The position numbers and the translations under genes were made by a program. The notes under the pieces were generated by a model. The model made no database searches. It worked only from the letters and a program-made list of their open reading frames with translations, and was not told where the DNA came from. From NCBI GenBank assembly GCA_017442315.1, contig JAFRZX010000010.1:1-34734 (forward strand): a stretch of 34,734 bases of DNA. Direction: 5' to 3'. Every line of letters begins with the position of its first letter. The first letter of the stretch is position 1. Of this stretch, positions 5,437-29,124 are shown piece by piece. Origin of the DNA: Bacteroidales bacterium (lineage in GTDB: Bacteria; Bacteroidota; Bacteroidia; Bacteroidales; UBA932).

Positions 5437-8127
5437 TTAATTCATGTTCATCAATGAATACTGATGAACCACATTTCCGAACACATCAATACGGACATGC
5501 ACTCCATCAATGCGTCCTTCTGCTGCTCCGTATCTGAACATACGGCCTCTATCACTGACAGCAACAGATTCACACTCCGTCGGATACACCATCTTACCGT
5601 CACAAGACCATATACCGAATCTGTCATCCTTCCCCACTTTTACATAGCCATCCGAGGACACAGAAACCGAATCATATTCTATCGGGACAACAACTTTCCC
5701 GACTTTATCTATTACTCCCCATTTCCCTCCTGAAGATACACAGGCGACACCGAATTCCGGATCGAAATCCATGACCTTGTCATATTGCATCGGTATTACA
5801 AACTCACCATATCTGTCTATATAACCATACTTCCCATTATGGGAGAGATAAGCCAGGCCGCCTGAAAAAGATCCTCCGTCCTCATACATCGGCACTGCAA
5901 TCCAATCACCATCCAGAGACACAAACCCAAGTCTGTCCTTTATCGTAACCAACGCAAAGCCTTCCGAGAAATTCTCCACCTCGTCAGAGAAAGGTGCCAC
6001 TATAAGTTCTCCATTTTTGTCAATGAATCCGAATCTGTCCTTTACCTTTATGCGCGCCATTCCTCCTACATATTCTCTTATCTCTTCATATTCCATCGGA
6101 ACTACCAGCTCCCCATTCTTATCGTAGCAACCATACTGACCGTATTTTTTTACAATTATAAGGTCCTCACCCATCTTGCCGACATAATCATAATCCATAG
6201 GAACAATCTGCTTTCCCTGAGAATCAAGTACTCCATACCTTCCCTCACTAGAAACCATCACATAAGAGGGATTGTCCATGTATTCCATGAAGTCATATTT
6301 TGCTTCAATAGTAAATTCACCGCTACGGTTGACCAGACCATATTTTCCCAGATGTCTTACTATCAGGTATTCCCCTGTGAAATTCCCGAACTCCCAGCCA
6401 TAGGCATTGCAGATCTGATCCGAACCTGCCATAGCCGTGTTATCCAGCCATCTTCCACGGGCATCCACAAGCCCGCACCCGCCAAGTTCACCTCCGCCCC
6501 AATCGTCCCATTCACAGCAAAGATGTACACCGAAATCATCCCCAAGTTCCTCCAATACATGGAAAGGATAATATTCAGGTCCGATACCCTTGCCTTTCCG
6601 ATACGAGGTCTTGGCATAAAGAAGATGGTCTTTGCATGCTATTCCTGAAAAATATGCGTAGGAAAAGGGATGAGAGAACTCCTGAAGCCTTTCGCCTCTT
6701 TTGTTCAACTGCACTATCAAAGGAGAGGAATCCCCTTTAGCAGCAGCTTTTCTGGAACCACATATATATATGTAGCTGTCAGTCTCATCGATATCATAGA
6801 ATTCCTCCCCATATGATGGAACGAATGTCCAGTCCTGACTGCCAGACCTGTCATAACGTACCAGAGGATTCTTCTCATTGAATGACAGCATCTTTGCAGA
6901 ACACTCATACCTGCCTCCGAATAAAGACTTCCAGACACGTACTGATGCATTTGCTGCCATGTCATCAGGATATTCTATACCATATTTATCAACGTCTTCA
7001 ACAGCAAGACCAAATGAAGAATCATATGAAGATTGCTCACAATCTGTCTTTTTACGCATAGCAACAGCTATTTCCTCCTCACGGGCTTCATGATTGGCCT
7101 CCAGCTTTAAAGTCTTTGACCATTCCGGAATTTCTTTAGTCGTATTGTATCCAAGTTCATTCTCCAGAAGCATCGTATAAAGTCCGAAAGGAACCGGAAT
7201 GTCAGCACGGTCACTTACAGCCGTAAACACACCTTCATCATAAATCTTGAAGGTCTTTTTCCCTAAAGAAGGAATGTCCTCAAATTTAGGACACACGAGT
7301 TCTGTCATATCTAAAGACACTGCTCCATATCTGTCACCCTGCCTGATCACATAATATCTGCCTGAAATAGCTTCGGTTATCTCATCGTATACACATGGCG
7401 TCACATATTGTCCAAAAACAGTAACCACTCCATATTTCCCATTCTGGACAGCCAGATACAGGTCAGGTCTACCGTTACTGCCAGTCCTTAGCAGTTCAAG
7501 AGGAACATCCCATTTGAGCGCAAGAAGATCCGAACCGTCTTTAAGGATTCCCCAAAGACCGTCCTTATATACGAGCTCGACCCCATTTCTACGGTCAAGC
7601 ATCCTTATTTCATCATATTGAGGATCTATAATGGTACTGCCGTCATGAGCTATCGTTCCGCACTTACCATCCTTGAATGCCCTATAGCCATAATCGACAT
7701 AACACAATGAGTCATAATGAACCTTCTGTACAAACCTTCCCTTACGGTCTATCAGGCCATATTTTGTGTTTTCCATTACAATAGCAAGGCTATCTGAAGA
7801 AAAATATTCCAGACCATCATAGACCGGCAAGATCACGAACAAGCCGGAATTACTGATAGTTCCCCATTGACCATTGAACTTCACTCGCGCTACACTACCC
7901 TCATAAGGACAAACAGCATCGAATATAGGCTTGACTACAAACTTTCCCTCTGAATCGGCATATCCCCATTTACCTTTCTTGTGCTGAAGAGGCGATATCT
8001 TTAATGTCAGGTCTTTACCTTTGATTTCTTTAAGATTCGGCAGGTCTTCCGGAATCTGCGCTTGCGCATTGCGACAGATTCCGAAAGCTATCACTGTCAA
8101 ACTTATTATAAATGAGAATCTTTTCAT
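5437..8127 (-). CDS. WG-repeat protein, exported
   Basis: An 896-residue protein with a signal peptide (cleavage likely after the AQAQ near residue 24) and many WG beta-hairpin repeats of the form (W/Y/F)G-x-hydrophobic-(D/N)-x-x-G. I count about fifteen: roughly seven in residues 50-270 and eight in residues 600-880, e.g. WGYADSEGKF, YGLVNRSGEF, FGFIDKNGEL, YGYIDRYGEF and WGVIDKVGKV. The middle (about 300-590) is a non-repeat region that I do not recognise. WG-repeat proteins are common in gut Bacteroidetes, usually without known function, and likely mediate binding. This is the last gene of the 16-gene leftward block, starting 26 bases after the BACON gene. Confidence 0.85.
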   Translation of the reverse strand: MKRFSFIISLTVIAFGICRNAQAQIPEDLPNLKEIKGKDLTLKISPLQHKKGKWGYADSEGKFVVKPIFDAVCPYEGSVARVKFNGQWGTISNSGLFVILPVYDGLEYFSSDSLAIVMENTKYGLIDRKGRFVQKVHYDSLCYVDYGYRAFKDGKCGTIAHDGSTIIDPQYDEIRMLDRRNGVELVYKDGLWGILKDGSDLLALKWDVPLELLRTGSNGRPDLYLAVQNGKYGVVTVFGQYVTPCVYDEITEAISGRYYVIRQGDRYGAVSLDMTELVCPKFEDIPSLGKKTFKIYDEGVFTAVSDRADIPVPFGLYTMLLENELGYNTTKEIPEWSKTLKLEANHEAREEEIAVAMRKKTDCEQSSYDSSFGLAVEDVDKYGIEYPDDMAANASVRVWKSLFGGRYECSAKMLSFNEKNPLVRYDRSGSQDWTFVPSYGEEFYDIDETDSYIYICGSRKAAAKGDSSPLIVQLNKRGERLQEFSHPFSYAYFSGIACKDHLLYAKTSYRKGKGIGPEYYPFHVLEELGDDFGVHLCCEWDDWGGGELGGCGLVDARGRWLDNTAMAGSDQICNAYGWEFGNFTGEYLIVRHLGKYGLVNRSGEFTIEAKYDFMEYMDNPSYVMVSSEGRYGVLDSQGKQIVPMDYDYVGKMGEDLIIVKKYGQYGCYDKNGELVVPMEYEEIREYVGGMARIKVKDRFGFIDKNGELIVAPFSDEVENFSEGFALVTIKDRLGFVSLDGDWIAVPMYEDGGSFSGGLAYLSHNGKYGYIDRYGEFVIPMQYDKVMDFDPEFGVACVSSGGKWGVIDKVGKVVVPIEYDSVSVSSDGYVKVGKDDRFGIWSCDGKMVYPTECESVAVSDRGRMFRYGAAEGRIDGVHVRIDVFGNVVHQYSLMNMN

Positions 8128-8153
8128 TTATCAAATTCATTTTATCCGATGAC

Positions 8154-11100
8154 TTACCTACCCGTGTCACCAACCTGAACAACCTTTATATTTAGAGACA
8201 GCTCTGATCCATCAGTTGTCGATACCTTTATTTCCCCATCCCTTTCCGGTGTCACAGTTCCTTCTGCAGCATCAGCCGGCAACTTATTGGAATCTACCTT
8301 TATCTTTAACTTCTGTTCTGATTCTTTAGTTACAGAAAAGAAAGTTCCCTTGGATACCTTAGCTTCCCAACTTCCGGTACATGTGACATTTACCGTATAT
8401 TCATCTCCCTGAACTGGCACGTTAAGCTGAGATGGACTCACACTGAATATATAACCCTTCTGAGATACAGTAACAGTCTTGGTGAAGGCAGGATTATCCG
8501 TACTTGTAAAGGTTATCTTGCCGGAACGGGCAGATGAATCCTTGTTCAGAGAAGCCTTGACCTTTACAGTTCTGTTGCCGGAACCATACTCTGTATCAAC
8601 AGTCAGGAACTTCCTGGCATCTGTATCAAAAACAGCCTTCCAGCCACCGGTACATGTGACATCAACTGTAAACTCTTCACCAAGAACATTTGCTTCTTTC
8701 TCTACAGGTTCAGCGTCCCAGACATAACCATCCTGAGATACGGTAACAATCTTGGTAAAGTCAGAATTGTCGGTACTTTCAAACATGATCTTGCCGGAAC
8801 GGGCTGATGACTCCTTGTTCAGAGAAGCTGTGACCTTTACAGTTCTGTTGCCGGAACCGGACTGAGGATCTACACTCAGGAATTTCTGAGCATCTGAATC
8901 AAGCCCAGCCTTCCAGCCACCGGTACATGTGACATCAACTATAAACTCTTCACCAAGAACATTTGCTTCTTTCTCTACAGGTGTAGCGTCCCAGACATAA
9001 CCATCCTGAGATACAGTAACAGTCTTGGTAAAGGCAGGATTATCGGTACTTGTAAAGGTTATCTTGCCGGAACGGGCTGATGACTCCTTGTTCAGAGAAG
9101 CCTTGACCTTTACAGCTCTGTTGCCGGAACCGGACTGAGGATCTACACTCAGGAATTTCTGAGCATCTGAATCAAGCTCAGCAGTCCAGCCACCGGTACA
9201 TGTGACACCTATATCAAAGGTTTCCCCTAAAGTTGCAACTGTCTTGCTATCCTTATCAACAACAAAGACATAACCTGCCTGAGACACCGTCACAATCCTC
9301 TTTAACTCAGGATTATCCGTACTGCTTACAGTCACATTTCCACTTCTTTGTCCAGCCTCTTTATTAAGATCGATATCAAATTCCAAACTATCATCCCCGG
9401 ATCCAGAATTTTTACCAACCGTTATGAACTGCTGGGCATCCGCATCAAGCTCCACTTTCCAATTGCCGGAGCACTTTACATCGAAGCCAAATTTTTGTGC
9501 AGTTGCGTCAAATTGATCCGAAGGAATGCCATCAAGACCAAATACATATTCTTTCTGAGATAGACTTACAGTCCTTTCTAATTCTGAAGGGTCTGTAGTA
9601 ACCAGCTTTATGCTTCCTTTTCTAACCTGTGGCTGATAGTTAGGATGGACTGTAACAAAGACAGACCCATTTCCTTCTCCGGACATCGGTACAATGTCAA
9701 GATACTGCTTCACAGCGTCATCAAGCTCTACGGCCCATGATCCGGTACAAGTAATCGGAATAGTGAAGCTGTCTCCCAAAACCGCACATTCTTCAGACCT
9801 TACGTCAACCTTGAATTCGTATGCTTTTTGAGCTATCGGTATTTCCTGTGTCTTGTTCTTGTCATCATTACTTGTAATGACAACTTTCACATTTCTTTCC
9901 GACTCCTTATAGTTCTCTGGTACTGTAAAGCTTAGGGTCTCCTCTATATCACGTCCACCTTGACCCTCAGTATCAGAGAGTCCAACCGGAAATTCCTTTA
10001 CTTCATTTCCTATAACAGCAGCTGTCCACTTACCGCTGCACTTGAACTTCATTTCATAGCTGTCTGTCTTCAATGCATCATGACTTATTGATTCAGGGCA
10101 TGAGACAATCTCCCATACGAAGTCTTTCTGATTTACAGATATTTTCTTTGTATGTTCAACGCCACCTACATTGCTATACACTTCAAACGAGCCACTGCGC
10201 ACTCCACCTGTATTATGTTCAGAACCAACCCTCACACTCACCTTGCCATCACTTCCGCTTCCACTCATCTTATCAATTCTGATCCAATCAGGTTTATTCC
10301 TGACATTCCACGGGCCGAGACAGTCAATGTCTAACGTTCTATCTGTATCATCCAACTCTCCGAACTCAGTCAAAAGAACAGGAGTGCTATCAAACCTATA
10401 TGCACCCTGCGAAACACTGAATGTAACAGACTTATCTACAATAGTGCTACTTACTGTAACAGTTGCTTGGCGTGGCTCTAAATTACCGTTATTTTTCAGA
10501 CTAAACGATGGTGATGCGCTTCCATAGCCACCGGCAGCACTCAAATCAACCCAATTTTCCGATTTGGAGATTTCCCACATGGCACCTGGGGTACAATCAA
10601 TCTTGAATGACTGCGAATCTGTCTCCAAGGCACCTAACTTATATTCAGGATTCGTTTTGACATCAAAGACAAAGGCATCCTGAGTTACAGTAATCGTTTT
10701 GTCTTCACCTTCATGGTTGGGATCTTCAGGAAGTGTCATTTCAGATTTATAGCTCCTGATGACTATATCTCCCGTTCTTTCCTGATTCCAAGGCGTTTCA
10801 ATCATTGTCCCGTCATTGTCCTTAAAAGTGACGGTTATATTTACTTTACCCTCTGTCCCATCACCTGCAGCCACACTGACCTCATCCACCCATTCAGGTG
10901 CTGAAAAAACTCTCCAAGGAGCTCCGCAATCTATAGTAAACTCATATTCATCAGATTTATATGCAGGAATATTTTTCTCAAATACAGAATCATCTATATC
11001 AAAGCAATATACTTTTTGCGTAATACTGAAGTTCTTCCTTGCTTCTGCTACATTCTTTCCATCATGAAGGTCACTGGTAATGGTAACAGTCATAGTACGC

Positions 11101-12926
11101 GGATGTTCTTTATCCTCATTAGGATTGATGGCATTCATTACTATTTCGTGTGTTCCTGCGCCTCCGTTCAGCACGCCTTCATCATCTGCCATAACAACTG
11201 CTCCGTCCGACATATAAGATGCAAAACCAACATTCAACCAATCATCGTCAGCATCCGTAGAAGACATCTTCAATGTCCAGGGACCAGATGATTCAAACCT
11301 GATATTATGAGGTTTTGTATCCAATCTGGAAATCTCAATGCCGTTTTCCAGATCATACCTGTCATCCTTAATTTGAAATATGAACGGCTTCTGAGTAAAT
11401 TTCGGATGCAGATCATCGGAAATACCTGGATCATTCGCCTTGAAATCGGTTGACAAAGTCAGGACCGCCTCGTTTTCCTTGAAATTAAGATTCTGCTTCG
11501 GCGCCATCAGATCTATATCCGATGTTCCATGACCGGAATCGTTATATTCGAGCCAATCCTTATTACCATCATCTATCTTCCACGGACCTTTTGTCCTGAC
11601 CTTCACAGTCTTTTTATCATTATCACTGCACAGATTTGGAAAAGATCTATCTGAGTTATAATCAATCAGTTCCAACTCATAAAGGTTCTGCGAATAATCC
11701 AGACATATGGTATCCACAGGCTCATTACCGACACTCAAAGGCAACATAAGAGACTTTCCTGTAGGAACAGGATCAGAAACTGCATCCTGAGGCAATTTAT
11801 TCACATTAGGCCTTGGCACTACAAGACGCATCTTTTTTCTGACACATTGTCTATCTAGCTGGTGAGTGGTATCACTCTGCAACAGGTCTTTATATGGCAA
11901 TTCCTCATTTCCCTCGCATATCAATTCATCTCCATCAGCCAATCCATCCCAATCATTATCACTAAACTGTACCTTGTCCTTCTCGTAGACGATATAGAAA
12001 TACTGCTCTCCAGGATATGTGTCAGCAGTACTATGGTCAGTCAGATAATCATACCCAAGTTCACTGAACGGTTTTTTGAGTATATATATATCCGTGGCTT
12101 CCTCTTTCAGTTCACATCCTTCCATGCCTTCCAGATAAAAAAGAAGGAAATCCTGACGCACATCAATAGTCCTTGTCAAAGCATGAGATACAGATTCATC
12201 AAGTTCCATATCCTTCCCATCAAGCCCTACCTTTCGCGGACGGATAGTGATTTTCGCCGGGAACACCTGATTATTAAGATTATGGTCTTCAGCAGACAGT
12301 CTGAACGACAGTATATCAGGGACATCTCCAAGCAATCCGTATTTCTCAGATAAGACAGGTTTACCATCTTCCTCCAGCAGATAACGCTGTTCTTCACTAT
12401 TTTCACCGCTGAAGTCTATTTCCCAATGAATATTTGATTCAACTTCAAATATTGCCCCTTTATCACTGCCGGACTTCATCCAATCAAAAGTGACATATGT
12501 CGTTGAGTCTGTCCTATAATCACTAGCATCTGATATCCTGACATCAAGCACAGCAGCATGCTGAGTAACTTTGAATTTATCTATTTCGTCTCCCTGTCTG
12601 CTGCAGAAAACGACATGTGTAGAATCAGACTCACCATCAAGGTTCGGCTTTACAGTAACTGTTATGGCAGTAGTTCCAGCCTTACCTTTCTCCGGCTTTA
12701 CCGTCAACCAGTTATCCTTGTTGTCCAGACCGTCATAGTCTATCTCCCAATCATACCGGGAAGTATAGGACAGAACCATTTCATCTCCCAGAGGATGTAC
12801 AGTCACATCCTCAACAGGGAGCAACGTAGGCAGTTCACTTTCATGCACAGCCATCTGACTATCCTTGTCACATCCGAAAAAAAAGACACCGGCAATCACG
12901 CCGACCAACAGATTTCTGAACTTCAT
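8154..12926 (-). CDS. Giant BACON-domain lipoprotein, ~14 repeats
   Basis: I place the start at ATG 12926, giving 1590 residues. This start begins directly with a lipoprotein signal (MKFRNLLVGVI, lipobox Phe-Phe-Gly-Cys, Cys19) and leaves a 22-base gap to the permease gene; the in-frame ATG at 12962 would add 12 charged residues and overlap that gene. The acidic and lysine residues just after Cys19 (DKD) resemble a Bacteroidetes surface-export signal. I count about 14 Ig-like units of about 90 residues, each with a (C/S)xGxW core and an SQxxY-like end, typical of BACON (carbohydrate- or mucin-binding-associated) domains. The last few units are nearly identical. It is probably a long cell-surface stalk or adhesin. 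It sits directly downstream of an ABC permease/ATPase pair, suggesting a functional link. Confidence 0.85.
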   Translation of the reverse strand: MKFRNLLVGVIAGVFFFGCDKDSQMAVHESELPTLLPVEDVTVHPLGDEMVLSYTSRYDWEIDYDGLDNKDNWLTVKPEKGKAGTTAITVTVKPNLDGESDSTHVVFCSRQGDEIDKFKVTQHAAVLDVRISDASDYRTDSTTYVTFDWMKSGSDKGAIFEVESNIHWEIDFSGENSEEQRYLLEEDGKPVLSEKYGLLGDVPDILSFRLSAEDHNLNNQVFPAKITIRPRKVGLDGKDMELDESVSHALTRTIDVRQDFLLFYLEGMEGCELKEEATDIYILKKPFSELGYDYLTDHSTADTYPGEQYFYIVYEKDKVQFSDNDWDGLADGDELICEGNEELPYKDLLQSDTTHQLDRQCVRKKMRLVVPRPNVNKLPQDAVSDPVPTGKSLMLPLSVGNEPVDTICLDYSQNLYELELIDYNSDRSFPNLCSDNDKKTVKVRTKGPWKIDDGNKDWLEYNDSGHGTSDIDLMAPKQNLNFKENEAVLTLSTDFKANDPGISDDLHPKFTQKPFIFQIKDDRYDLENGIEISRLDTKPHNIRFESSGPWTLKMSSTDADDDWLNVGFASYMSDGAVVMADDEGVLNGGAGTHEIVMNAINPNEDKEHPRTMTVTITSDLHDGKNVAEARKNFSITQKVYCFDIDDSVFEKNIPAYKSDEYEFTIDCGAPWRVFSAPEWVDEVSVAAGDGTEGKVNITVTFKDNDGTMIETPWNQERTGDIVIRSYKSEMTLPEDPNHEGEDKTITVTQDAFVFDVKTNPEYKLGALETDSQSFKIDCTPGAMWEISKSENWVDLSAAGGYGSASPSFSLKNNGNLEPRQATVTVSSTIVDKSVTFSVSQGAYRFDSTPVLLTEFGELDDTDRTLDIDCLGPWNVRNKPDWIRIDKMSGSGSDGKVSVRVGSEHNTGGVRSGSFEVYSNVGGVEHTKKISVNQKDFVWEIVSCPESISHDALKTDSYEMKFKCSGKWTAAVIGNEVKEFPVGLSDTEGQGGRDIEETLSFTVPENYKESERNVKVVITSNDDKNKTQEIPIAQKAYEFKVDVRSEECAVLGDSFTIPITCTGSWAVELDDAVKQYLDIVPMSGEGNGSVFVTVHPNYQPQVRKGSIKLVTTDPSELERTVSLSQKEYVFGLDGIPSDQFDATAQKFGFDVKCSGNWKVELDADAQQFITVGKNSGSGDDSLEFDIDLNKEAGQRSGNVTVSSTDNPELKRIVTVSQAGYVFVVDKDSKTVATLGETFDIGVTCTGGWTAELDSDAQKFLSVDPQSGSGNRAVKVKASLNKESSARSGKITFTSTDNPAFTKTVTVSQDGYVWDATPVEKEANVLGEEFIVDVTCTGGWKAGLDSDAQKFLSVDPQSGSGNRTVKVTASLNKESSARSGKIMFESTDNSDFTKIVTVSQDGYVWDAEPVEKEANVLGEEFTVDVTCTGGWKAVFDTDARKFLTVDTEYGSGNRTVKVKASLNKDSSARSGKITFTSTDNPAFTKTVTVSQKGYIFSVSPSQLNVPVQGDEYTVNVTCTGSWEAKVSKGTFFSVTKESEQKLKIKVDSNKLPADAAEGTVTPERDGEIKVSTTDGSELSLNIKVVQVGDTGR
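8461..9279 (-). repeat. Three tandem 273-bp repeat units inside the BACON gene
   Basis: The same landmarks recur at an exact 273-bp period. The TGAGA(T/C)AC start lies at 8461, 8734, 9007 and 9280, and the CAGCCACCGGTACATGTGAC block at 8641, 8914 and 9187. Each unit encodes 91 residues, one BACON-like domain. Adjacent copies are nearly identical at DNA level over long stretches, so they are recent duplications and could change copy number by recombination. Confidence 0.9.
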
Positions 12927-14538: not shown

Positions 14539-15407
14539 ATTTTCTTCAAGTACAACTCGAATTCTGCAGTTTCATACGTTTCAACACCGTTGCTCCAGCT
14601 TTTTCCATCATGGGAAGGGGTAAAGATACAAGTGTCATCTATCACACCATAATATGTCACTTCATCCTTGACATTCTTTACCGGACGGCTTTCCTTCCTG
14701 ATCTTTATTATCATATCTGCAAATGTCACTGACAGATGCATGTCATGGGAAACAATGATGGCGGAGCTTCCTTTCAGACCGTTAAGCTTAGCCGTCAGCA
14801 GTTCCATCGCCTTGACAGCATTGTCGCTGTCAAGGTTTCCTGTTGGTTCGTCACCGAAAAGGACTGTAAAATCGGGAAGTATCGCACGGGCGAAGGCCAG
14901 TCTCTGCTGCTGTCCTCCGGAAAGTTCCTGCGCCATTCTCTCGTCGGTTATATGCTCCAGTCCAAGATCCTCAAGCACCTGTGATGCCTTTTCAAAGGCC
15001 TCTACCTGCGAATAACCTTGAAGCATACGGGTAAGGGCGATGTTCTCATACGCAGTGAAATTCCTCATCAGATTGGTACTCTGGAATATGAAATTGAAAT
15101 GCCGAAGTCTGAACTCTGACAGTTCGTCATCATCATCCTTTGCCCAAAGATCCATCAGATCCACTGAAGATCCATTGCCTTCGTGGAAAATGAATTTAGT
15201 TCTTTCCTGAGGAACAATCGTATTGTTCATCAATCCGAGGACCTCAAGAATGGTACTCTTTCCTATGCCTGACTCTCCTACGATAAAGACCTTCTTGCCT
15301 TTAGGAATCACCAGATCATGTATTTCAAGAACAACTTTCGACACTCCTTCACGGTAATTCCTGTCGTAGGAGCATCTCAAATCAGATATTTCAAATAATT
15401 TATCCAT
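14535..15407 (-). CDS. ABC transporter ATP-binding protein, MacB/LolD type
   Basis: A 290-residue cytoplasmic ATPase that would power the adjacent permease. Motifs are complete: Walker A GESGIGKST (44-52), Q-loop FQ (108-109), signature LSGGQQQRL (162-170), Walker B VLFGDEP (182-188) with the LolD/MacB-typical TGNLDS next to it, and the H-loop His221. A C-terminal extension of about 50 residues beyond the nucleotide-binding domain is longer than in LolD and is not recognised. An acidic insertion (DDDDE, about 91-95) lies before the Q-loop. It starts 16 bases after the TssR-like vWA gene, so it is part of the block rather than a separate transport operon. Confidence 0.93.
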   Translation of the reverse strand: MDKLFEISDLRCSYDRNYREGVSKVVLEIHDLVIPKGKKVFIVGESGIGKSTILEVLGLMNNTIVPQERTKFIFHEGNGSSVDLMDLWAKDDDDELSEFRLRHFNFIFQSTNLMRNFTAYENIALTRMLQGYSQVEAFEKASQVLEDLGLEHITDERMAQELSGGQQQRLAFARAILPDFTVLFGDEPTGNLDSDNAVKAMELLTAKLNGLKGSSAIIVSHDMHLSVTFADMIIKIRKESRPVKNVKDEVTYYGVIDDTCIFTPSHDGKSWSNGVETYETAEFELYLKKI

Positions 15408-20713: not shown

Positions 20714-21853
20714 CTATACAAATAAATTCAACACTACACCTACAGCCAGACCTGCAACAGCACTGAGCACCCATACCCAGGGAGACATAGGTTTTTCTGC
20801 TTCTGATGTCGAAACATAAGAAAAATCACGTACCGTATGACCATCTTCTTTCTTTGCAGATTCTGTCTCTACCGGAGACACATCATTTTTTACAGAAGAT
20901 GAATCCGTGAAGGCAACAGTTTCCGTCAGCGGTTTCCTGACCGGCTTTTCTTCCTTTACCTGCTCCACCGGTTTCTGTTCATCCTTTTTATCTTCCTGAA
21001 CGGGAGCTGATCCATCCTTTATCCATGGCATCCTTGGAGATGCTTCTCCTTCAAGTATCCGAGATGCAAATTCTGCAAGCTGCTGGGCAGTAGGACGATT
21101 CCACGGCTCTTTAGCCATACACGCCTGGCAGACAACATTCAATGTGTCGGAATACTCCTCAGGAAGCTCCGGCATGTCAGCACCCTGTTTCAGAAGACTT
21201 CCTCCCATACCACAGAACGGAAGTTCATTTGTGACAAGTTCGAATATCGATGCTCCCAAAGACCATATGTCACTTGCTTTCACTGCATGATACTGCTTGC
21301 TGAATCTTTCGGGTCCCATATATGAGATTGCACCTGCCGAACTCATGGCATTAGCTGTCTTGCGCAAAGTTGCCCGAAGCTGCTTGCTGATACCGAAGTC
21401 GGTAATCACGAAATCCCCGGACTTAAGTATAAGTATGTTATCCGGCTTGATGTCCTGATGGATGATAGGAGGCTGCATGGAATGAAGATAGGCCAGTCCT
21501 GAAGCCACATCACGTATAAAACGCCAAAGATCTGTCTCGCTCATTTCACCGGCATATTTTGATACCGAACCGTCCGGACAGAACGGCATTACCAGATAAG
21601 GCCTCTGGTCTTCTGCATTGACACCAAGGTAATTAGCGTGAAGCAGGTTTGTATGATTCAACTCAAATGAGATCTTAAACTCATCCTTAAACTCCTTGAG
21701 GCCTTTCTCATCCATGGAGACATAGACCTTGATTGCAACTTCAATATCAGTTGCAGCATCAACGGCAACCCAGACCTCACCGAAAGTTCCGCTTCCAATA
21801 AAGCGTTCTAATCTGTAACGTCCATCAAGAAGATATCCTTCCGAATATTTCAT
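20714..21853 (-). CDS. Tail-anchored Ser/Thr protein kinase
   Basis: A 379-residue Hanks-type kinase. Visible motifs are the glycine loop GSGTFGEVW (20-28), ATP lysine K42, the catalytic loop HQDIKPDN (132-139), DFG (152-154) and GPER (180-183). The usual HRD arginine is replaced by Gln (HQD), so activation may not depend on a phosphorylated activation loop, but Asp134, Lys136 and Asn139 are kept and activity is expected. After the domain comes a 75-residue Pro/Glu/Lys-rich linker with Thr-Val motifs (T312, T340), then a C-terminal TM helix (about 357-379) that anchors the kinase in the inner membrane. It lies 76 bases after the PP2C gene, its likely antagonist. Confidence 0.93.
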   Translation of the reverse strand: MKYSEGYLLDGRYRLERFIGSGTFGEVWVAVDAATDIEVAIKVYVSMDEKGLKEFKDEFKISFELNHTNLLHANYLGVNAEDQRPYLVMPFCPDGSVSKYAGEMSETDLWRFIRDVASGLAYLHSMQPPIIHQDIKPDNILILKSGDFVITDFGISKQLRATLRKTANAMSSAGAISYMGPERFSKQYHAVKASDIWSLGASIFELVTNELPFCGMGGSLLKQGADMPELPEEYSDTLNVVCQACMAKEPWNRPTAQQLAEFASRILEGEASPRMPWIKDGSAPVQEDKKDEQKPVEQVKEEKPVRKPLTETVAFTDSSSVKNDVSPVETESAKKEDGHTVRDFSYVSTSEAEKPMSPWVWVLSAVAGLAVGVVLNLFV

Positions 21854-21929: not shown

Positions 21930-22988
21930 TCATTTGATATCGTCATTCTGCAAAAACACATCAAAGATATTCTTGTCAATCCGTACATGGCCGGCATCAT
22001 CCAGCACAATCACATCCAGACAGATTGCAGCCACAAGCAGAGCAATACATATCAGCAGGATGATGAGCAGAGCCAATAATATCTTGCGATTGCGCTTCTT
22101 CCTGTCCTTCTTAGCAGACTCATGAGGCAGCAGGGTGCTTGTCAGTTCCTTTTCATGCATAGCTCCGCATTCAAGAAGGGCAATCGTGACATTATCATAT
22201 GCACCAGCATCAAAGGCTGCGTTGAAAAGCGCAATTCTATAATCTTCTATACTATCATATTGCTGCATGAGGACATTCAGTATCTCCTCATCGCGCACAA
22301 GGCCGCAAAGTCCGTCCGTACATAACAGGATATAATCTCCTGCTGACAGTCGTTTGCACACATAATCCGGCTGGGCCTTGGTAGCCGAATCACCTAAACT
22401 TCTTGTAATTATGTTGCTGTTAGGATGATCAAATGCCAGTTCCGGATCCAGTTGACCGGAATCCACCAGACTCTGGACATAAGAATGATCCTTGCTCAAC
22501 CTGCTCAGAGCTCCTGCCTGACGGTTGAAAAGATAGGCTCTGGAATCACCGCACCAAGCGACATGTACCACATTGCCTATTATCCAAGCCACAACGATGG
22601 TAGTACCCATCCCGGACGTGGAAGCGTCCTCCTTCACCTTCTTCTTGATCTGCTCGTCAGCATCCACAATGCTTTTCTTGAGGAAAGCCTCTATATGATT
22701 GCTGCTGTCAATTATCTTGGAAAAATCTGTAATATTGGAAAAACTATCCTTGATACCGTTGACAGCCAGTTCCGACGCTACTTCGCCGGCATTCATGCCA
22801 CCCATTCCGTCAGCTACAACCATGACGCAGCCATATTCCCCCATATCCATAGGTTCATTGGGACTTGATGGCACAAACCAGTTGTCCTGCTTCGACAGGT
22901 CTGGGTTGACTATGAAATTGTCTTCATTATTGGTCCGGACCAAACCCACATTGGTCGCAACTGTCATTTTGAAGGTAATGTCAGACAT
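21930..22988 (-). CDS. PP2C-family protein phosphatase with C-terminal TM helix
   Basis: A 352-residue metal-dependent Ser/Thr phosphatase that would reverse the action of the two kinases. PP2C motifs are complete: NNEDNF with E22-D23, VADGMGG (58-64), SGMGTT, CGDSRAY (146-152), DHS, TDGL with D225, and YDNVT with D265-N266, giving all metal ligands. After the domain come a basic stretch (about 293-302) and one TM helix (about 302-328), with a short acidic tail outside. The topology puts the catalytic domain in the cytoplasm at the inner membrane, alongside the tail-anchored kinase. A GC-rich hairpin lies in the 78-base gap upstream. Confidence 0.94.
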   Translation of the reverse strand: MSDITFKMTVATNVGLVRTNNEDNFIVNPDLSKQDNWFVPSSPNEPMDMGEYGCVMVVADGMGGMNAGEVASELAVNGIKDSFSNITDFSKIIDSSNHIEAFLKKSIVDADEQIKKKVKEDASTSGMGTTIVVAWIIGNVVHVAWCGDSRAYLFNRQAGALSRLSKDHSYVQSLVDSGQLDPELAFDHPNSNIITRSLGDSATKAQPDYVCKRLSAGDYILLCTDGLCGLVRDEEILNVLMQQYDSIEDYRIALFNAAFDAGAYDNVTIALLECGAMHEKELTSTLLPHESAKKDRKKRNRKILLALLIILLICIALLVAAICLDVIVLDDAGHVRIDKNIFDVFLQNDDIK

Positions 22989-23066: not shown

Positions 23067-23489
23067 TTAGTCAAGTTCCTGACCTCTGTTAGAGTAGTTG
23101 GATACAGAATTCTCTATGATTATGTCTCCACCCTTATACTCTATTTCAGTTCTTGTGATTTTGTTATCAAGCACACGGATAGCATGAGTCACAGGCATTG
23201 AAGACTGCTTTGCGCTGTTGTTGTAATGCTTGATGATAGCCAGCTTTTCCTTAACCTCATAAAGTTCCTCGATTGTCTCACATTTCAGATAAGCTTCGTT
23301 AGCTGCATCTACAAGGAAATTGAGGATTTCGATCTGGTTGATCTTGCTAGCCTTAAGGAACTGCTTCAGAGATGCATCAGTCACGATCTGCTCATATGAG
23401 ATATGAACATCCTTGCGGCTCTGAGCCTGTGCTGAGAATGAAAGCACACAGGCTGCAATTACGATAACGATTGAAATGATTCTTTTCAT
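23067..23489 (-). CDS. Small exported protein of unknown function
   Basis: A 140-residue protein with a signal peptide (MKRIISIVIVIAACVLSFSA, cleavage after AQA near residue 23). The mature part is predicted helical in its first 75 residues (e.g. LKQFLKASKINQIEILNFLV) and ends in a short polar segment. I recognise no family. It lies between the FHA-coiled-coil gene (33 bases) and the PP2C gene (78 bases), so it is probably a periplasmic partner of the membrane-spanning FHA protein. It has no lipobox. Confidence 0.72.
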   Translation of the reverse strand: MKRIISIVIVIAACVLSFSAQAQSRKDVHISYEQIVTDASLKQFLKASKINQIEILNFLVDAANEAYLKCETIEELYEVKEKLAIIKHYNNSAKQSSMPVTHAIRVLDNKITRTEIEYKGGDIIIENSVSNYSNRGQELD

Positions 23490-23522: not shown

Positions 23523-24521
23523 TTAAAATTTCTTCAATTTAGGTTTCTGCTCAGTAGAAAGTGTTGGCTTCTCTTTTGTGTTGCGGTTGATGAGACTGTT
23601 GAGCGAAGATTTCTTTGCTTCCTCTGCTGCCTTTGCCTCTTCCTCCTTTCTAGCCTCTTCTTCCTTGAGCTGCTGTTCAAGACCTTCGATCTTGCTCTGC
23701 GCAGCCTCTACATTCTGGCCAGCCTGAGCTGCAACATCCGCTGCATTCTGAAGTTCATCACGAAGAGCTGCCGCACTTTCAAGAAGCGCTTCACGCTCTG
23801 CCTGAGCTGCATTAAGCTTCTGCTGTATACGCATGCGCTCTGCAGCAGACTCTGCCTGAGTGTTCACAAGTTCATCGTTAAGAGCATTGATGAGTTCATC
23901 GCTTGCAGAAAGATCCTGCTGAACCTGATCTATAAGTTCCTGCTTAGCTTCAAGTTCCTGAGTGAACTGCTGCTGAGAATAAAGATTCCATGCCACAAGT
24001 CCGCCAACTGCAAGAACAAGAATAAGGGCCATGATCCACATTGCACGCTTGTAAGGGCGGAGAGCCTGCTGACGGAAAAGATTGAGACGCTCTGTCATTC
24101 CAATGCTGCTTACAAGGCTCTGCTTGCCCTGAGGAACGATGAATCCCATAAGCGGTCCTCTTGAAGAAAGACGTATCTCATCTCCTGAATTCAGAATCTT
24201 CTCAGATGTGATGACCTGACCGTTTACAATTGTAGAATTGGTCTGTGAAAGCGGAACAAGTTTCCAGTTTTCACCTTCCTTTACGATTGCCGCATGACGA
24301 CGGCTTACAGTCTCGAACGACTCATCAAAACGTACCTGACAAGAAGAATCACGGCCAAGTTCCACCTGATCCACGATTATCTTCTGCGACTCTCCGGCAT
24401 GATGATACAAAGACTCTGTCTTATGCTCCAGAATGTAGTACTGACGTCCAGAAGCATTGAATACTGCAGCCATTCCAGCACCGACTGAACCAGCTACGGT
24501 TCTTTTGTAATTTGCCTCCAT
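23523..24521 (-). CDS. FHA-domain protein with TM helix and long coiled coil
   Basis: A 332-residue protein. The N-terminal FHA domain (about 45-130) has the phosphothreonine-binding residues in LGRD (55-58), SRRH (73-76) and the VNG turn (99-101). One TM helix (about 160-180) follows, then an Ala/Glu/Gln-rich coiled coil (about 183-300) and a basic tail. The topology puts the phosphopeptide reader in the cytoplasm and a coil perhaps 15 nm long in the periplasm, so it could carry a phospho-signal across the inner membrane. The extreme N-terminus has a Thr-Val motif (T8 in KRTVAG) like those in the zinc-ribbon protein, a candidate phosphosite. It follows the FHA-kinase gene by 42 bases. Confidence 0.9.
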   Translation of the reverse strand: MEANYKRTVAGSVGAGMAAVFNASGRQYYILEHKTESLYHHAGESQKIIVDQVELGRDSSCQVRFDESFETVSRRHAAIVKEGENWKLVPLSQTNSTIVNGQVITSEKILNSGDEIRLSSRGPLMGFIVPQGKQSLVSSIGMTERLNLFRQQALRPYKRAMWIMALILVLAVGGLVAWNLYSQQQFTQELEAKQELIDQVQQDLSASDELINALNDELVNTQAESAAERMRIQQKLNAAQAEREALLESAAALRDELQNAADVAAQAGQNVEAAQSKIEGLEQQLKEEEARKEEEAKAAEEAKKSSLNSLINRNTKEKPTLSTEQKPKLKKF

Positions 24522-24563: not shown

Positions 24564-25889
24564 TTACAATTCAATCTTCAGCTTTACATCACCTATCGTG
24601 ATGATATCTCCGTTCTTGAGAAGTCTTCCATTCTGTGTAACGACATCCGAATTGACATAAGTTCCGTTCATGGAAGTCTTCCACATCATAGACTCTGAAT
24701 TCCACTGCCCGTCACGTATCTGCCAAAACGATTCTCCCAACATCTCAATCACGCAATGCCTACGTGAAACATATGACTCATCATAGTCCTCAATCACAAT
24801 GGCATTTGCTTCATCTCGTCCCACCCCAAGGACCTTTCTGCCATATCTTGTGATTATATCTTCAAGAAGATACTCCTTTCCGAACTCCTTACCCTGCATG
24901 ACTTTCAGTCTCTTGATTCCAGCCGGTTCTTGCTGCTTCACAGGATCCGGCTCAACCACCTTGGGTGTCACGGCCTTCGACGAATGGACCGGATCATTAT
25001 AATAAGGAAGCAAGGCCATCGCATCGCCGGCTGAATGAACTCTTTCCTTATGATCAGGAATAAGACATTTCGATATCAAATGTTCCCAATCCCTTCCATG
25101 AGGAGCCATCAACAGTCTCATCCTGTCCCAGTCACCAGCTTTTCCTCTTTTCTGATAATGAACCAGATCGTTCTGATCATCCAGTTTTCCAAAAGGGAGA
25201 TAACCTGTAATCAACTGATACATCATCACTCCGAAAGAATACAGGTCGGTAGTCGGGAGAACAGTGCTGTTGCCCCTTGCCGGATTGACCTGTTCCGGAG
25301 GCATATATGCATAGGTTCCGAATATCTGGGTCGGCTTTCCGAAAATGTTTCTTTCCGTCATTCTCTTATTACGGTCTCCGCTTATGCCGAAATCAGTAAG
25401 CACTGCCGTACCATCCTCCTTGAAAAGCACGTTCTCCGGTTTTAGGTCACGATGCACCTTACCATTGACATGAAGGTCATGAAGTCCGTTCAGGACGTCT
25501 CTGGCAATTCTGACAAGCGGGGCATCCTCTTTCCCTACAAACTTCACAAGATCACCACCTGCACAATATTCCATAACGATATACGGATTTCCCTTGACCA
25601 ATCCATAATCAACGGAATGCACCAGATTGCGGCTCTTTATGCAACTTGTCTTGTATTCCATCTCAAAACGGCTTATAAGAGGCTGGCGGATACTTGCAGG
25701 CACATCCCACAAACGAAGCAGTTTCATCGCCCAAGTATTCCCTCTGACATCCTTCACTTTATAAACGACGCCAAAAGAGCCTTCTCCCAATGCTTTTTCT
25801 ACGACATATCCACAAGCGACCTGATCACCGGGATTATAATCGCAACGTTCAGGAATAATATTGCTGCCTATGTGAGAAGATGTCAACAT
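24564..25889 (-). CDS. Ser/Thr protein kinase with C-terminal FHA domain
   Basis: A 441-residue soluble kinase. The kinase domain (about 25-300) has the glycine loop GEGSFGVVY (35-43), ATP lysine K56, HRDLKPEN (146-153), DFG (166-168) and PPEQ (197-200), all intact. A linker of about 50 residues leads to an FHA domain (about 353-441) with GRD (357-359), SRRH (375-378) and NGTYVN (408-413). Such fusions let a kinase bind phosphothreonine on a partner or on itself. No TM helix is visible, unlike the second kinase. The start codon overlaps the stop of the zinc-ribbon gene by seven bases, so the two products are translationally coupled and are likely partners. Confidence 0.95.
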   Translation of the reverse strand: MLTSSHIGSNIIPERCDYNPGDQVACGYVVEKALGEGSFGVVYKVKDVRGNTWAMKLLRLWDVPASIRQPLISRFEMEYKTSCIKSRNLVHSVDYGLVKGNPYIVMEYCAGGDLVKFVGKEDAPLVRIARDVLNGLHDLHVNGKVHRDLKPENVLFKEDGTAVLTDFGISGDRNKRMTERNIFGKPTQIFGTYAYMPPEQVNPARGNSTVLPTTDLYSFGVMMYQLITGYLPFGKLDDQNDLVHYQKRGKAGDWDRMRLLMAPHGRDWEHLISKCLIPDHKERVHSAGDAMALLPYYNDPVHSSKAVTPKVVEPDPVKQQEPAGIKRLKVMQGKEFGKEYLLEDIITRYGRKVLGVGRDEANAIVIEDYDESYVSRRHCVIEMLGESFWQIRDGQWNSESMMWKTSMNGTYVNSDVVTQNGRLLKNGDIITIGDVKLKIEL

Positions 25890-26671
25890 TTCTCAAAAAA
25901 ATAACGTACGCCATTAATCACCACCTCATGTCCCACATGCAGTTCTATCGGTGATTCCCCTGTAGAAGCAACAGGAACAAGTCTGAAATCTGCCTTATTT
26001 TCCGAAATCAGTTCTTCAGGGATATCCCTGACGGTTGCCTTAAGATCTGTCTTTGCAGTCTTATTCTCCGCATGAGGAACGATCCTTACGGTTGCGTTGA
26101 TAGGTTTCGGATCTTCTTTTTCATCCTCATCAGATGTTATCATAACAGTTGCGACTGTAGATTTCAAGGACCTGGATTCAGAAGATGGCTGTTCAACCGG
26201 CTGAACCACAGGTTGAGGCAACGGTTTTGCCGCAGTCTTCTTTATAGTTGCCCCGCAGTTCGGACAATATTCTGATCCTCCTGTTATAGGATAGCAGCAT
26301 TTAGGACATTGCACAGTCTCCGACAGGTCCGCTGTATCCAATACAGCGGAAGCATCCATGACTGTAGCTGTCAACTTTTTTCTCTGCTCGGAAGTTGGAA
26401 CAGCTGCAACAGGAGCAGCCCCGAAAGCTACTGTTGCATTGGATATCTCGCTCTTAGCTGGCTCTGGCTCACAAACAGGCTCTGGCTCATCTGACGGATC
26501 ATGCACAGATACCGGTTCTGCCACAGATACTGGTTCTGCCACAGGACTTGGATCAGGATCCGGAACGACAACAGGAGTTTCCGGTTCTATCTCAAAAGAA
26601 TCCTCTTCACATTTTTCACAACGTACAGCGGAATCAAGATTAAACCAACCGCAGTTATTACATCTCTTCAT
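25883..26671 (-). CDS. Double zinc-ribbon protein with repeated Thr-Val motifs
   Basis: A 262-residue cytoplasmic protein. Two CxxC-x10-CxxC zinc ribbons are visible: C4/C7/C18/C21 and C122/C125/C136/C139 (CPKCCYPITGGSEYCPNCG). The rest is low-complexity Pro/Glu/Val linker in which Thr-Val recurs seven times (T80, T103, T119, T172, T175, T194, T213), in contexts such as NATVAF, TATVMD, NATVRI and KATVRD. The last 35 residues form a compact segment that I do not recognise. It is directly coupled to the FHA-kinase gene. I infer it is a multisite substrate or scaffold whose phosphothreonines bind FHA domains; this has not been shown. Confidence 0.82.
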   Translation of the reverse strand: MKRCNNCGWFNLDSAVRCEKCEEDSFEIEPETPVVVPDPDPSPVAEPVSVAEPVSVHDPSDEPEPVCEPEPAKSEISNATVAFGAAPVAAVPTSEQRKKLTATVMDASAVLDTADLSETVQCPKCCYPITGGSEYCPNCGATIKKTAAKPLPQPVVQPVEQPSSESRSLKSTVATVMITSDEDEKEDPKPINATVRIVPHAENKTAKTDLKATVRDIPEELISENKADFRLVPVASTGESPIELHVGHEVVINGVRYFFEKC

Positions 26672-26682
26672 AATTCAAAATA

Positions 26683-27852
26683 TTATCCGAAAATCATATC
26701 GAATACCTTTTCTGCCTTTACAGCACCATCCTCGGATTTCACTGTAATCTTTACCTTATGGTACTGTCCGTCCATGAATTCAGATACGTTGGTAAACCGT
26801 ATCACATATGAATTCTGCATAGCCTTGGTTACGGGAAGATTATCAAGAGAAACGCCTGTGAAATCTGATGATGCATACAATATGGTTCCACCGGTATATT
26901 CTGACATTCTCCATGGCTTTTCAAACTCATCAGGGACCTCTTCGAAATCAACATAGTCAATATCGCTATATACGGTATGTATAGTACCCTGACCTGTAGA
27001 CCAATTGCTTTGGGAGCTTACATATGTGACAGAAAAACCACTTTTGCCATGTGGAGAGTTCGGCTCGTCCGTAAAATTCACATAAATCCGGTTTGCTCCT
27101 GTCCTGAATGTGAAATTCTCATCTGCAAACCTAAGGGCTGCTGTCCCGCATTCAACCTGGCTGCTCAGATCATATGCACTCTTGGCAGCATACAAAGCAT
27201 CAGCATCATCTCCTGCAAATCCGAATGTGCGGTCAGTTCCGGAAGAACGGTTCAGATAATCACTCAGATTTTCATATGAAGTAAGATTCATTGCACCGGT
27301 TATCAATCCATTATATCCTACGCAACTGAATCTGACATCAAGATTGGTGTTCAGTTTTTGTGCCCATTGTATAATATCTCTTGCAATGGCATCAGCTTCA
27401 TCACCCATACTGCCTGAATTATCTACCAGAAATACAAAATCATTCTTGATATTCAGATTCCCTGACGCATCATCAATCGTGTTGTGTACAAGTATTCCTT
27501 TGGGCTTATCATCCACAGACACCCAAACGTTTTGAGGAACACCTGATTCCCCTCCCGTACCAATAAGCCTTATCCATTCATCTGTTTCAGGGTTCTGGAT
27601 ACCTGTCATGTCAATTCTTATAACGACATCATTCCCTTCCGTTTCTACCGAATACTGTACGTTAGGAATGGAAACAGTCGGATTTGATATGGATGGATTC
27701 GGTGTTGCCTGACTGTCGCTTGGTATACCTGTATTATTGATACCGCTTTCCAATACAATGGTACTCACACCATCTTTAAGGCAAGAACCAAACAATAAAG
27801 AAGCAAAAATCAAAACCAGACTCAGGGTCTTGGATTTAAAACATGGTATCAT
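26683..27852 (-). CDS. vWA-domain lipoprotein
   Basis: A 389-residue exported protein with a lipoprotein signal (LLFGSC, Cys24). After a Ser/Pro/Asn-rich linker and a beta-rich segment (about 65-130), a von Willebrand A domain begins near residue 137. It has a perfect MIDAS motif DNSGSMG (D144, S146, S148) and a later TDEPN that probably supplies the third metal-site loop. vWA domains bind protein ligands through a divalent metal. This is the second gene of the block, six bases after the OmpA-domain gene and 11 bases before the zinc-ribbon gene. It probably faces the periplasm or cell surface. Confidence 0.9.
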   Translation of the reverse strand: MIPCFKSKTLSLVLIFASLLFGSCLKDGVSTIVLESGINNTGIPSDSQATPNPSISNPTVSIPNVQYSVETEGNDVVIRIDMTGIQNPETDEWIRLIGTGGESGVPQNVWVSVDDKPKGILVHNTIDDASGNLNIKNDFVFLVDNSGSMGDEADAIARDIIQWAQKLNTNLDVRFSCVGYNGLITGAMNLTSYENLSDYLNRSSGTDRTFGFAGDDADALYAAKSAYDLSSQVECGTAALRFADENFTFRTGANRIYVNFTDEPNSPHGKSGFSVTYVSSQSNWSTGQGTIHTVYSDIDYVDFEEVPDEFEKPWRMSEYTGGTILYASSDFTGVSLDNLPVTKAMQNSYVIRFTNVSEFMDGQYHKVKITVKSEDGAVKAEKVFDMIFG

Positions 27853-27858
27853 ATCCGC

Positions 27859-29124
27859 TTATTTTAATATTTCAAATTCAACACGGCTGTTCATACGACG
27901 TCCCTCCTCTGTATCATTGGTCGTCAATGGCTTAGTCATACCATACCAGTTGTACGAAAGCTTCTCACTTGGCACTCCCTGCTCCTCCAGATACCTTACA
28001 ACTGCCAATGCCCTGTCTCTGGACAGACTCATATTAGACTCCGGACTTCCGGTATTATCTGTATGTCCCTTCACTTCAACTTTCAGGTCAGTCCTGATCA
28101 ACAACTGAGCAAGGCGGTTCAGATAATCATAAGATTCCACTCCAAGCAGACTCCTGCCTGTTTCAAAACTGACGGAATTGATCACACATATTGTCTTGCC
28201 GACAACCTTTTCTCCCCTGGAAATCATTTCCAGGACATCATCCAAAGTATAGCATGGCTTCCTCTCGACAGACGGCGCCACATAGATCCGCTGAACCTGA
28301 GTTGCAGTGTAACCTGATGGCTTACGTTTTTTGAATATACTCAATGGTATCCCGAAACTGGCTCTGACCTCTACACCGGAAAACTTACGTACACCGGCGA
28401 CAACAGCCCTTGTCCCATTTACACTTACAATATCTCCTTTACGTTCTTTTTTACTATAAGTGTCTGTAATTCCATACTCATATCCTGCTTCAAGGCCCAC
28501 ATAAAATGTCTTTTTGGCAATCTTGAACTGAAACTTTGCTCCAGCACCTACCGAAGCTGCAAAATATGCCGATGCCATATTTGCCTTTGACAGTTTCATT
28601 GCATAGTGCTCATATCCTGACATTGTGTATTCCTGAAGAGACAAGGTTCCTCCAGTCGAGAATCCAAGTACAGGAGCAACGAACACATATGGTCTTACCA
28701 ACGAACTCTCATCCAGGAAAGTATACATTACCGGAACACGCAGATCCACATATCCTGATTTCAGTCTGTATATACCCTGAGTAACATCTGAGACTCCATT
28801 AAAATACTGAGTTCCCCCTCTTCCCAGGAAAGTTACTTCCGGCCTTATGAAAAAATGTCTGTTTCTATCAAACGCATATTCAGCAAAAACAGAAAAGACC
28901 GCGCTATTTGAATTGTCTCTGTTAGTATACAGACCCTTATTAAGTCCACTGAAGCGCATGAAACCAGCATGATAGCCTGCTCCTATCCCGATATGCCATC
29001 TGTCCAAAGGATTTTCGTCAAGCTTGGTATAAGAGACTTCAGATTGCAGAAAATCATCTGTCTGTGCAATGGAGATCATGCACGAAAACAAAAGCACAAA
29101 TGTGCTAAGCACTGATTTATACAT
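27859..29124 (-). CDS. OmpA-family protein: beta-barrel plus peptidoglycan-binding domain
   Basis: A 421-residue outer-membrane protein and the first gene of the leftward block. A signal peptide (cleavage after SIAQ, about residue 21) leads to a barrel-like region (about 30-265) with alternating strands such as IGIGAGYHAGFMRF and VGLEAGYEYG. The C-terminal OmpA-like domain (about 310-421) has the peptidoglycan-binding signature VKGHTDNTGSPESNMSLSR and a conserved RMNSRVEFEI end. It would tether the outer membrane to the cell wall and may anchor the assembly encoded downstream. The predicted block promoter lies about 30 bases upstream. Confidence 0.92.
   Translation of the reverse strand: MYKSVLSTFVLLFSCMISIAQTDDFLQSEVSYTKLDENPLDRWHIGIGAGYHAGFMRFSGLNKGLYTNRDNSNSAVFSVFAEYAFDRNRHFFIRPEVTFLGRGGTQYFNGVSDVTQGIYRLKSGYVDLRVPVMYTFLDESSLVRPYVFVAPVLGFSTGGTLSLQEYTMSGYEHYAMKLSKANMASAYFAASVGAGAKFQFKIAKKTFYVGLEAGYEYGITDTYSKKERKGDIVSVNGTRAVVAGVRKFSGVEVRASFGIPLSIFKKRKPSGYTATQVQRIYVAPSVERKPCYTLDDVLEMISRGEKVVGKTICVINSVSFETGRSLLGVESYDYLNRLAQLLIRTDLKVEVKGHTDNTGSPESNMSLSRDRALAVVRYLEEQGVPSEKLSYNWYGMTKPLTTNDTEEGRRMNSRVEFEILK

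Follow-up and report, generated by a model that had tools for sequence, protein, structure and literature searches.

A TssR homologue encoded beside an ABC transporter and threonine-phosphorylation genes in Bacteroidales genomes without type VI secretion markers

Contig JAFRZX010000010.1 of the Bacteroidales bacterium assembly GCA_017442315.1 (34,734 nucleotides; hereafter the window) is an entire contig of a 173-contig draft genome that is 88.6% complete, and it carries a compact block of 16 genes, g01 to g16. We find that one of them, g05, encodes a full-length homologue of TssR, a protein of the type VI secretion system (T6SS), and that in related loci TssR is regularly followed by an ATP-binding cassette (ABC) ATPase, within a clade whose genomes show neither of the T6SS markers TssC and TssK. 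We give about an even chance to the reading that the block encodes a T6SS-free, ABC-powered trans-envelope machine with a large surface protein, gated by phosphorylation in this clade. The parts are of known types in an apparently undescribed combination, and one of them is sister to a known complex; a literature search of open-licence PMC papers, mostly at the level of titles and the starts of abstracts, returned no description of a TssR with an ABC pair outside the T6SS.

The gene block is genuine. All 16 open reading frames lie on the minus strand between 5437 and 29124, and once internal ATG starts are taken for g08, g07 and g02, adjacent genes are spaced -7 to +78 bases apart and coding sequence fills 98.6% of the block; this confirms an initial annotation, made from the sequence alone, that had described 16 minus-strand genes with gaps of at most 78 bases and small overlaps. 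Pfam searches bore out its domain list as well, recovering two kinases (one with an FHA domain), PP2C, FHA, OmpA, an ABC ATPase, FtsX, BACON and WG repeats; matches to zinc ribbons in g14 and to a vWA domain in g15 fall under the curated cut-offs, and a C-terminal transmembrane segment (TM) in the PP2C protein g10 is an addition to the earlier description. That annotation had drawn no link to the membrane complex of the Bacteroidota T6SS (T6SSiii), to the ABC pair as a regular neighbour of TssR, or to the TagQRST-PpkA pathway.

The identity of g05 is supported at the level of both domains and whole-length profiles. Specifically, g05 matches TssR_VWA (6.1e-12) and the TssR N-terminal barrel (1.7e-9) over the Pfam cut-offs and TssR_C just under (25.4 bits; cut-off 25.7), which upholds the earlier label 'TssR-like'. 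When the g05 family (22 rows) was compared with 14 canonical T6SSiii TssRs, hhalign gave a probability of 100 over 735 columns; together with the three domains, this alignment shows that g05 is a full-length TssR homologue. The only solved relatives of the g05 profile are integrin I-domains (best E 0.0085). The T6SSiii membrane complex (TssNQOPR) consists of five proteins, TssR among them. According to PMC10781749, zero genomes hold a complete membrane complex while lacking all other T6SS genes; its abstract reports membrane-complex homologues as undetected outside T6SS loci, and a passage of PMC4714493 places genes for such proteins 'almost exclusively' within T6SS loci.

To define the genomic context of this TssR, we used a five-row TssR alignment, which led to 31 named loci: 20 in the window clade (L015-L034), 9 distant (L035-L043) and 2 of the T6SS (L044, L045). 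The distant ABC-type set considered below comprises 14 loci (L035-L043, L109, L110, L167-L169). The genes g08, g07, g06 and g05 are each present in all 20 window-clade loci, and the ABC and FtsX genes in 16, the other four contigs ending first. An ABC ATPase gene comes after TssR in 16/20 window-clade loci (4 are at contig ends) and in 14/14 distant loci, compared with 0/16 canonical T6SS loci within the stretches examined; 13 of the 14 distant loci also have a permease, separate or fused with the ATPase, and the remaining one (L036) ends first. Distant loci encode g08-related proteins ahead of TssR (hhalign E 6.1e-14), and g06, for which no solved-structure relative was found, likewise has distant relatives (hhalign E 6.1e-9). 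Evolutionary distances correlate with those of TssR most closely for FtsX (r 0.96), then for g06, g07 and g08 (0.92), ABC (0.84) and PP2C (0.67); because shared ancestry by itself yields correlation, only the contrast among these values is informative.

The window clade carries the labels Alistipes, Rikenellaceae, Coprenecus, other Bacteroidales and, on a 3.6 kb contig, one Prevotella, with several members from animal gut or rumen samples. Among 398 relatives, a TssR-type profile was matched in 18 genomes, of which 7 have a full-length ABC-type protein (the window's own included), 2 a canonical T6SS protein and 9 a partial vWA-type match. A phylum sample (n=395) held full-length ABC-type TssR in 4 genomes (the window's own, G463, G488 and G582), and a second phylum-wide search of 395 genomes returned an unchanged set of genomes, with no further full-length ABC-type locus.

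The TssR proteins of the two settings appear to differ in ancestry and differ in a metal-binding motif. In a tree of 51 TssR rows (16 T6SS and 35 ABC-type; root unknown), T6SS and ABC-type proteins fall on opposite sides of one branch with support 90/86, and the window clade's 20 rows form a single clade (100/100). The DxSxS motif of the metal ion-dependent adhesion site (MIDAS) is intact in 20/20 window-clade rows, 10/15 other ABC-type rows and 0/16 T6SS rows. The loop-2 column is T or S in 18/20, 4/15 and 5/16 rows, respectively, and the loop-3 D is present in 20/20, 9/15 and 1/16. The ABC-type rows without DxSxS are L168, L169 and L040-L042, the last three from genomes with TssC and TssK (L040 with a TssK fragment only). 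Counting as a T6SS carrier any genome with TssC or TssK, 29 rows are T6SS-free with an intact motif, 19 are from carriers with the motif lost, 2 are T6SS-free with it lost and 1 is from a carrier with it intact. These states offer a single independent pair on the tree, so the pattern is a difference between clades and not a tested correlation. Judging from the ABC-linked loci, TssR may be a vWA protein with a metal site, one that the T6SS versions have lost.

The initial annotation had seen no T6SS core with the block, and this extends across the clade: TssC and TssK are each absent from 20/20 window-clade genomes, all of them draft. Neither marker was found in 10/14 other ABC-type genomes; G463, G488 and G582, which lack both, are listed as 100% complete. 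Membership of a T6SS was rejected on these absences. TssC occurs in 7/36 genomes (one duplicate), namely the canonical carriers G108, G381, G423 and G424 and the ABC-type genomes G417, G420 and G421, and TssK in 8/38 genomes examined, one as a fragment in G419. The block might instead be a remnant or split part of a T6SSiii membrane complex, with sheath and baseplate lost or lying in unassembled parts of a draft genome. The TssR homology and the 88.6% completeness of the window's own genome are consistent with this, as are G420 and G421, where the TssR-ABC locus occurs alongside TssC and TssK and holds the sole near-full-length TssP among the matches listed. Against it stand the absence of both markers from the whole window clade and from the three genomes listed as complete, and the tree, in which ABC-type TssRs, most of them retaining the MIDAS motif, stand apart from those of the T6SS; we think a remnant quite improbable.

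A second membrane-complex protein is recognizable in some of these loci. A protein with a TM and a PKD domain, encoded two genes before TssR in L041 and L042 and three before it in L038, is a full-length TssP homologue (hhalign probability 99.9, 272 columns). In the window clade, no full-length TssP was among the matches listed, with partial matches in G041 and G400 and a weak one in G404 (2.5e-5). From its similar position and single TM, g07 is possibly a diverged counterpart of TssP: its C-terminal comparison with TssP scored 22.6, compared with maxima of 18.9 over 100 column shuffles and 13.5 over 11 control families, at an hhalign probability of 8%. By eye, the g07 homologues in L020, L026 and L028 have a zinc-ribbon-like stretch ahead of the TM. 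The block is like TssNQOPR in its full-length TssR, in the TssP homologue of three related ABC-type loci and in a single-TM periplasmic protein near TssR. It is unlike TssNQOPR in the absence of TssC and TssK from the clade, in having no counterpart of TssN, TssO or TssQ, in a MIDAS motif that is intact here and degenerate in the T6SS, and in its additional ABC pair, barrel-like g08 and g06.

If the favoured reading of an ABC-powered machine is correct, the MacB-type ATPase g04 and permease g03 would sit in the inner membrane, and the TM-anchored periplasmic g07, the TssR-type vWA protein g05, the secreted partner g06 and the outer-membrane barrel g08 would connect them to the surface, where the machine would work on, or display, the large lipoprotein g02. 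We infer that these proteins assemble into one complex. ABC transporters of the MacB and FtsEX type act by mechanotransmission. ATP hydrolysis here would move the periplasmic part of the permease and alter the TssR/barrel complex, and this change may in turn alter the display of the surface protein or its grip on a ligand, with the TssR MIDAS as the putative ligand site; adhesion is accordingly a predicted function, and the 'surface adhesion or export' suggested by the initial annotation may be correct. In the cytoplasm, the kinases g13 and g09 would phosphorylate Thr sites on a zinc-ribbon scaffold, g14; the FHA domains of g13 and g12 would read phospho-Thr, g12 would carry the state through the membrane and the PP2C phosphatase g10 would reset it.

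The link between a phospho-circuit and an envelope apparatus that the initial annotation proposed is supported across the window clade, where kinase and PP2C genes occur together in 17/20 loci and the remaining three end early. Individually, kinase is found in 18/20 loci, PP2C in 17/20, FHA (g12 model) in 15/20 and BACON in 15/20; the misses among the phospho genes are the early-ending contigs L025, L027 and L028, and for FHA also L020 and L026, which have weakly matching FHA genes. Two layouts exist, with 2 changes on the TssR tree. Type A (the window, L015, L016 and L030-L033) encodes a zinc-ribbon protein, kinase-FHA, FHA-TM-coil, g11 in most loci, PP2C and kinase-TM. Type B encodes an FHA protein, a further kinase in some loci, PP2C, FHA-TM, an FHA-FHA-TM-trypsin-like protein (Pfam-tested in L118 only), a secreted protein and kinase-TM; its first FHA protein has an N-terminal KT(V/I)xPG motif in 5 of the 6 read. 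G352, from another family, has a comparable set next to its TssR-ABC genes (L109), and a kinase-TPR protein is encoded near L037. In 12/14 distant TssR-ABC loci, some on short contigs, no kinase, PP2C or FHA gene was recognized nearby, so the envelope proteins apparently can work in the absence of such kinases. The envelope and phospho halves are separable: the initial annotation had expected homologues of its genes to occur together, and for the phospho half, given those 12 loci and the two layouts, this expectation partly fails, whereas for the envelope half it stands.

We propose that g14 is a phospho-Thr scaffold. It contains 7 [AKRSNG]T[VI] sites compared with 0.94 expected, a number reached by 0/5000 shuffles, and its five relatives contain 2-7 such sites; counts in type B proteins are less telling because some sites fall within the FHA domain. 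An 18-base tandem repeat (2.3 copies) lies within g14 at 26504-26544. In some relatives, phospho-Thr readers are joined to protease-like domains, as in the type B relative L118:15871-17316 (FHA-FHA-TM-trypsin-like, by Pfam) and in L114:11963-13711 (FHA-TM-coil with a trypsin-like stretch, by eye); a trypsin-like stretch is also added to the g12 relative of L033, and there, by eye, the usual catalytic motif is missing.

In the main rival explanation the signal runs the other way; sequence does not distinguish between the two directions. Here, TssR, barrel and ABC pair would form an envelope sensor, like TagQRST without a T6SS, that detects contact or outer-membrane damage and activates the membrane kinase, with the FHA-TM protein or a gene elsewhere as the output. 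The part list resembles TagQRST-PpkA-PppA-Fha of the Pseudomonas aeruginosa H1-T6SS, in which, according to passages of PMC11881912 and PMC6657622, an outer-membrane lipoprotein, a periplasmic protein and an ABC pair lie upstream of PpkA, which phosphorylates Fha. In both, a single operon combines envelope proteins with a membrane kinase, PP2C, an FHA reader and an ABC pair, and the L118 protein with its trypsin-like domain is a possible periplasmic output. The block differs in having two kinases, a proposed zinc-ribbon scaffold, a TM anchor on its PP2C, TssR and a barrel-like protein and in the absence of TssC and TssK from its own genome at the stated completeness; g04 and g03, which match at the level of the ABC and FtsX families, are a candidate counterpart of TagS/TagT. 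The distant loci without a recognized phospho gene speak against a sensor, as does the Pfam search of the 16 proteins, which showed no domain of the TagR type, the periplasmic activator. We regard the sensor as unlikely.

Handling of a lipoprotein or adhesin is another explanation, in which the ABC pair would be a Lol-like extractor for g02 and TssR, g08 and g07 an export path. The best NCBIfam match of g04 is LolD (138 bits; cut-off 308), a lipobox pattern is matched by 14/15 g02-family rows, and a protein with a C-terminal tail of the type IX secretion system (T9SS) is encoded nearby in four distant loci (L037, L038, L041 and L168). However, the presumed cargo varies by lineage, being a BACON lipoprotein or a T9SS substrate, for which a substrate-specific extractor does not readily account; we consider this very improbable. 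More generally, g04 and g03 resemble MacB, LolCDE and FtsEX in pairing an ATPase with a four-TM FtsX-domain permease and are unlike them in that the regular neighbour is TssR and that Pfam showed no MacA-type domain among the 16 proteins.

Several observations weigh against a T6SS-free, phosphorylation-gated machine. Support for the branch that separates the two kinds of TssR is not strong, the tree is unrooted and several of its branches are long; the MIDAS and T6SS states follow ancestry. The window-clade relatives are labelled as metagenome-assembled genomes, and three ABC-type genomes also carry TssC (G417, G420, G421). For G420 and G421, the sole near-full-length TssP among the matches listed is encoded beside TssR and ABC and so may serve the T6SS of these genomes. 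Two TssR-domain proteins (L108, L111) have no ABC neighbour. The direct comparison of g07 with TssP is weak, and profile comparison gave no TssO, TssQ or TssN counterpart among g06, g07, g08, g11 and g12. Of the five relatives of g14, three show a weaker Thr-site enrichment (shuffle fractions 0.03-0.06), and the exported BACON protein, alone among the remaining products of the window, also falls below 0.05 (0.027).

A poly-G tract lies in the putative promoter of the block. Using the Bacteroides -33/-7 promoter consensus, we found 3 matches in the window (0.77 expected by shuffling; 4/100 shuffles reach 3), two of them outside the block and one just upstream of g16. The spacer of the latter holds a G9 tract (29166-29174, minus strand) directly before the -7 box, the sole G/C run of at least 7 in the window; 0.09 runs of at least 9 are expected under a first-order model. 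In the nearest relative, a G9 at L015:1161-1169 lies 46 bases upstream of the first operon gene and adjoins a TAnnTTT box, and such runs number 3 in 560,552 partly overlapping bases from the 31 relatives' loci. The strict -33/-7 pattern is also found upstream of g14 in 3/4 type A relatives (not L015) and 0/6 type B loci; it has 19 matches in 153,087 bases, so a single match is weak evidence. It is plausible that the poly-G promoter is phase-variable in the window species and in L015, although the tract showed no variation in length.

The initial annotation had treated all 16 genes as a unit. What holds is an envelope and phospho core of about 13 genes (g14 to g02): g16 and g15 were unmatched in the scanned loci of relatives, g15 being found in 1/20 clade genomes, its own, and g01 has counterparts in 2 other loci (L016, L033). 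Both g15 and g16 look like lineage-specific additions at the operon front.

Table 1. Genes of the block and its putative promoter, listed from the promoter side
Feature	Positions	Strand	Description
Promoter match	29158..29189	-	Bacteroides-type; G9 tract in spacer
g16	27859..29124	-	Beta-barrel and OmpA domain protein; Pfam OmpA 5.7e-21, OMP_b-brl_2 1.6e-10
g15	26683..27852	-	vWA lipoprotein; Pfam VWA 2e-4 (under curated cut-off); lipobox by sequence
g14	25883..26671	-	Zinc-ribbon protein (below cut-offs); repeated [AKRSNG]T[VI] sites
g13	24564..25889	-	Ser/Thr kinase with C-terminal FHA; Pkinase 7.7e-41, FHA 2.2e-13
g12	23523..24521	-	FHA (3.5e-15), one TM (158-176), coiled coil
g11	23067..23489	-	Small exported protein; 1-3 copies where type A loci have it
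g10	21930..22988	-	PP2C phosphatase (4.1e-14); C-terminal TM 299-317
g09	20714..21853	-	Tail-anchored Ser/Thr kinase; Pkinase 1.1e-45; TM 356-374
g08	19150..20709	-	Exported; N-terminal domain and predicted C-terminal outer-membrane-barrel-like part; no Pfam family
g07	18417..19145	-	One TM and a periplasmic part; putative counterpart of TssP, by position
g06	17815..18420	-	Secreted protein, core component
g05	15424..17796	-	TssR homologue; signal peptide (by sequence); intact MIDAS motif in vWA domain
g04	14535..15407	-	MacB/LolD-type ABC ATPase; ABC_tran 4.4e-22
g03	12949..14538	-	FtsX-type permease, 4 TM; FtsX 3.6e-8
g02	8154..12926	-	BACON-repeat lipoprotein; BACON 1.4e-59
g01	5437..8127	-	Exported WG-repeat protein; WG_beta_rep 2.2e-76

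Other known systems were compared and set aside. The TerY-P triad likewise groups kinase, PP2C and vWA genes. TerY is a cytosolic vWA protein; this candidate was rejected, as g05 (signal peptide) and g15 (lipobox) start with hydrophobic export-type segments. A scan of 10 of the 16 proteins for the MADS and PD-T4-6 defence systems gave strong matches for the kinases (mad6, 213 bits for g09), weaker ones for the ABC ATPase and a weak one for the g12 coil, with no other component of these systems. As to a mobile element, a plasmid collection held no g05 match, 95 pattern stretches from viral contigs included no relative and the window has no tRNA; the rejection of a mobile origin extends to what these collections cover. 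An Rfam search of the window gave no family at the gathering score.

Further features were noted in the block and its relatives. The BACON gene g02 contains a 273-base unit (8451-9207; 2.8 copies, 89% matching), and the length of the BACON family varies widely among relatives. Second copies of the g08 family lie near the operon in the genomes of L032 (L116:4206-5750) and L030 (L030:5492-7042). Downstream of a locus with three TssRs, ABC and FtsX, L035:14788-21645 encodes homologues of SrfB (8.2e-215) and SrfC/Virul_Fac (7.7e-148); SrfABC-type operons are possibly linked with ABC-linked TssR. The 1095-residue protein at L108:7607-10894 (G417:C380) has TssR-type domains and, by eye, adjoins an NTPase-like open reading frame.

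Taken further, the block may represent a new class of trans-envelope machine in Bacteroidota, a proposal that we hold tentatively. Such a class would be sister to, and perhaps ancestor-like for, the T6SSiii membrane complex, with a TssR whose metal-dependent adhesion site works, a TssP-like stalk, an outer-membrane barrel, power from a MacB-type ABC ATPase instead of a contractile tail and a lineage-specific giant surface protein. In one Bacteroidales clade a detachable Thr-phosphorylation module would gate it, and in two members, the window species and the relative closest to it, so would a promoter made phase-variable by a poly-G tract. With regard to the abstract of Bongiovanni et al. (PMC10781749), a candidate for the missing relative of the membrane complex is provided by the ABC-linked TssR loci, several of which also encode a full-length TssP homologue; through them, the question of where the T6SSiii anchor came from becomes open to testing. 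Confirmation of the phospho half would provide a case in which threonine phosphorylation controls an envelope machine that is not a T6SS.

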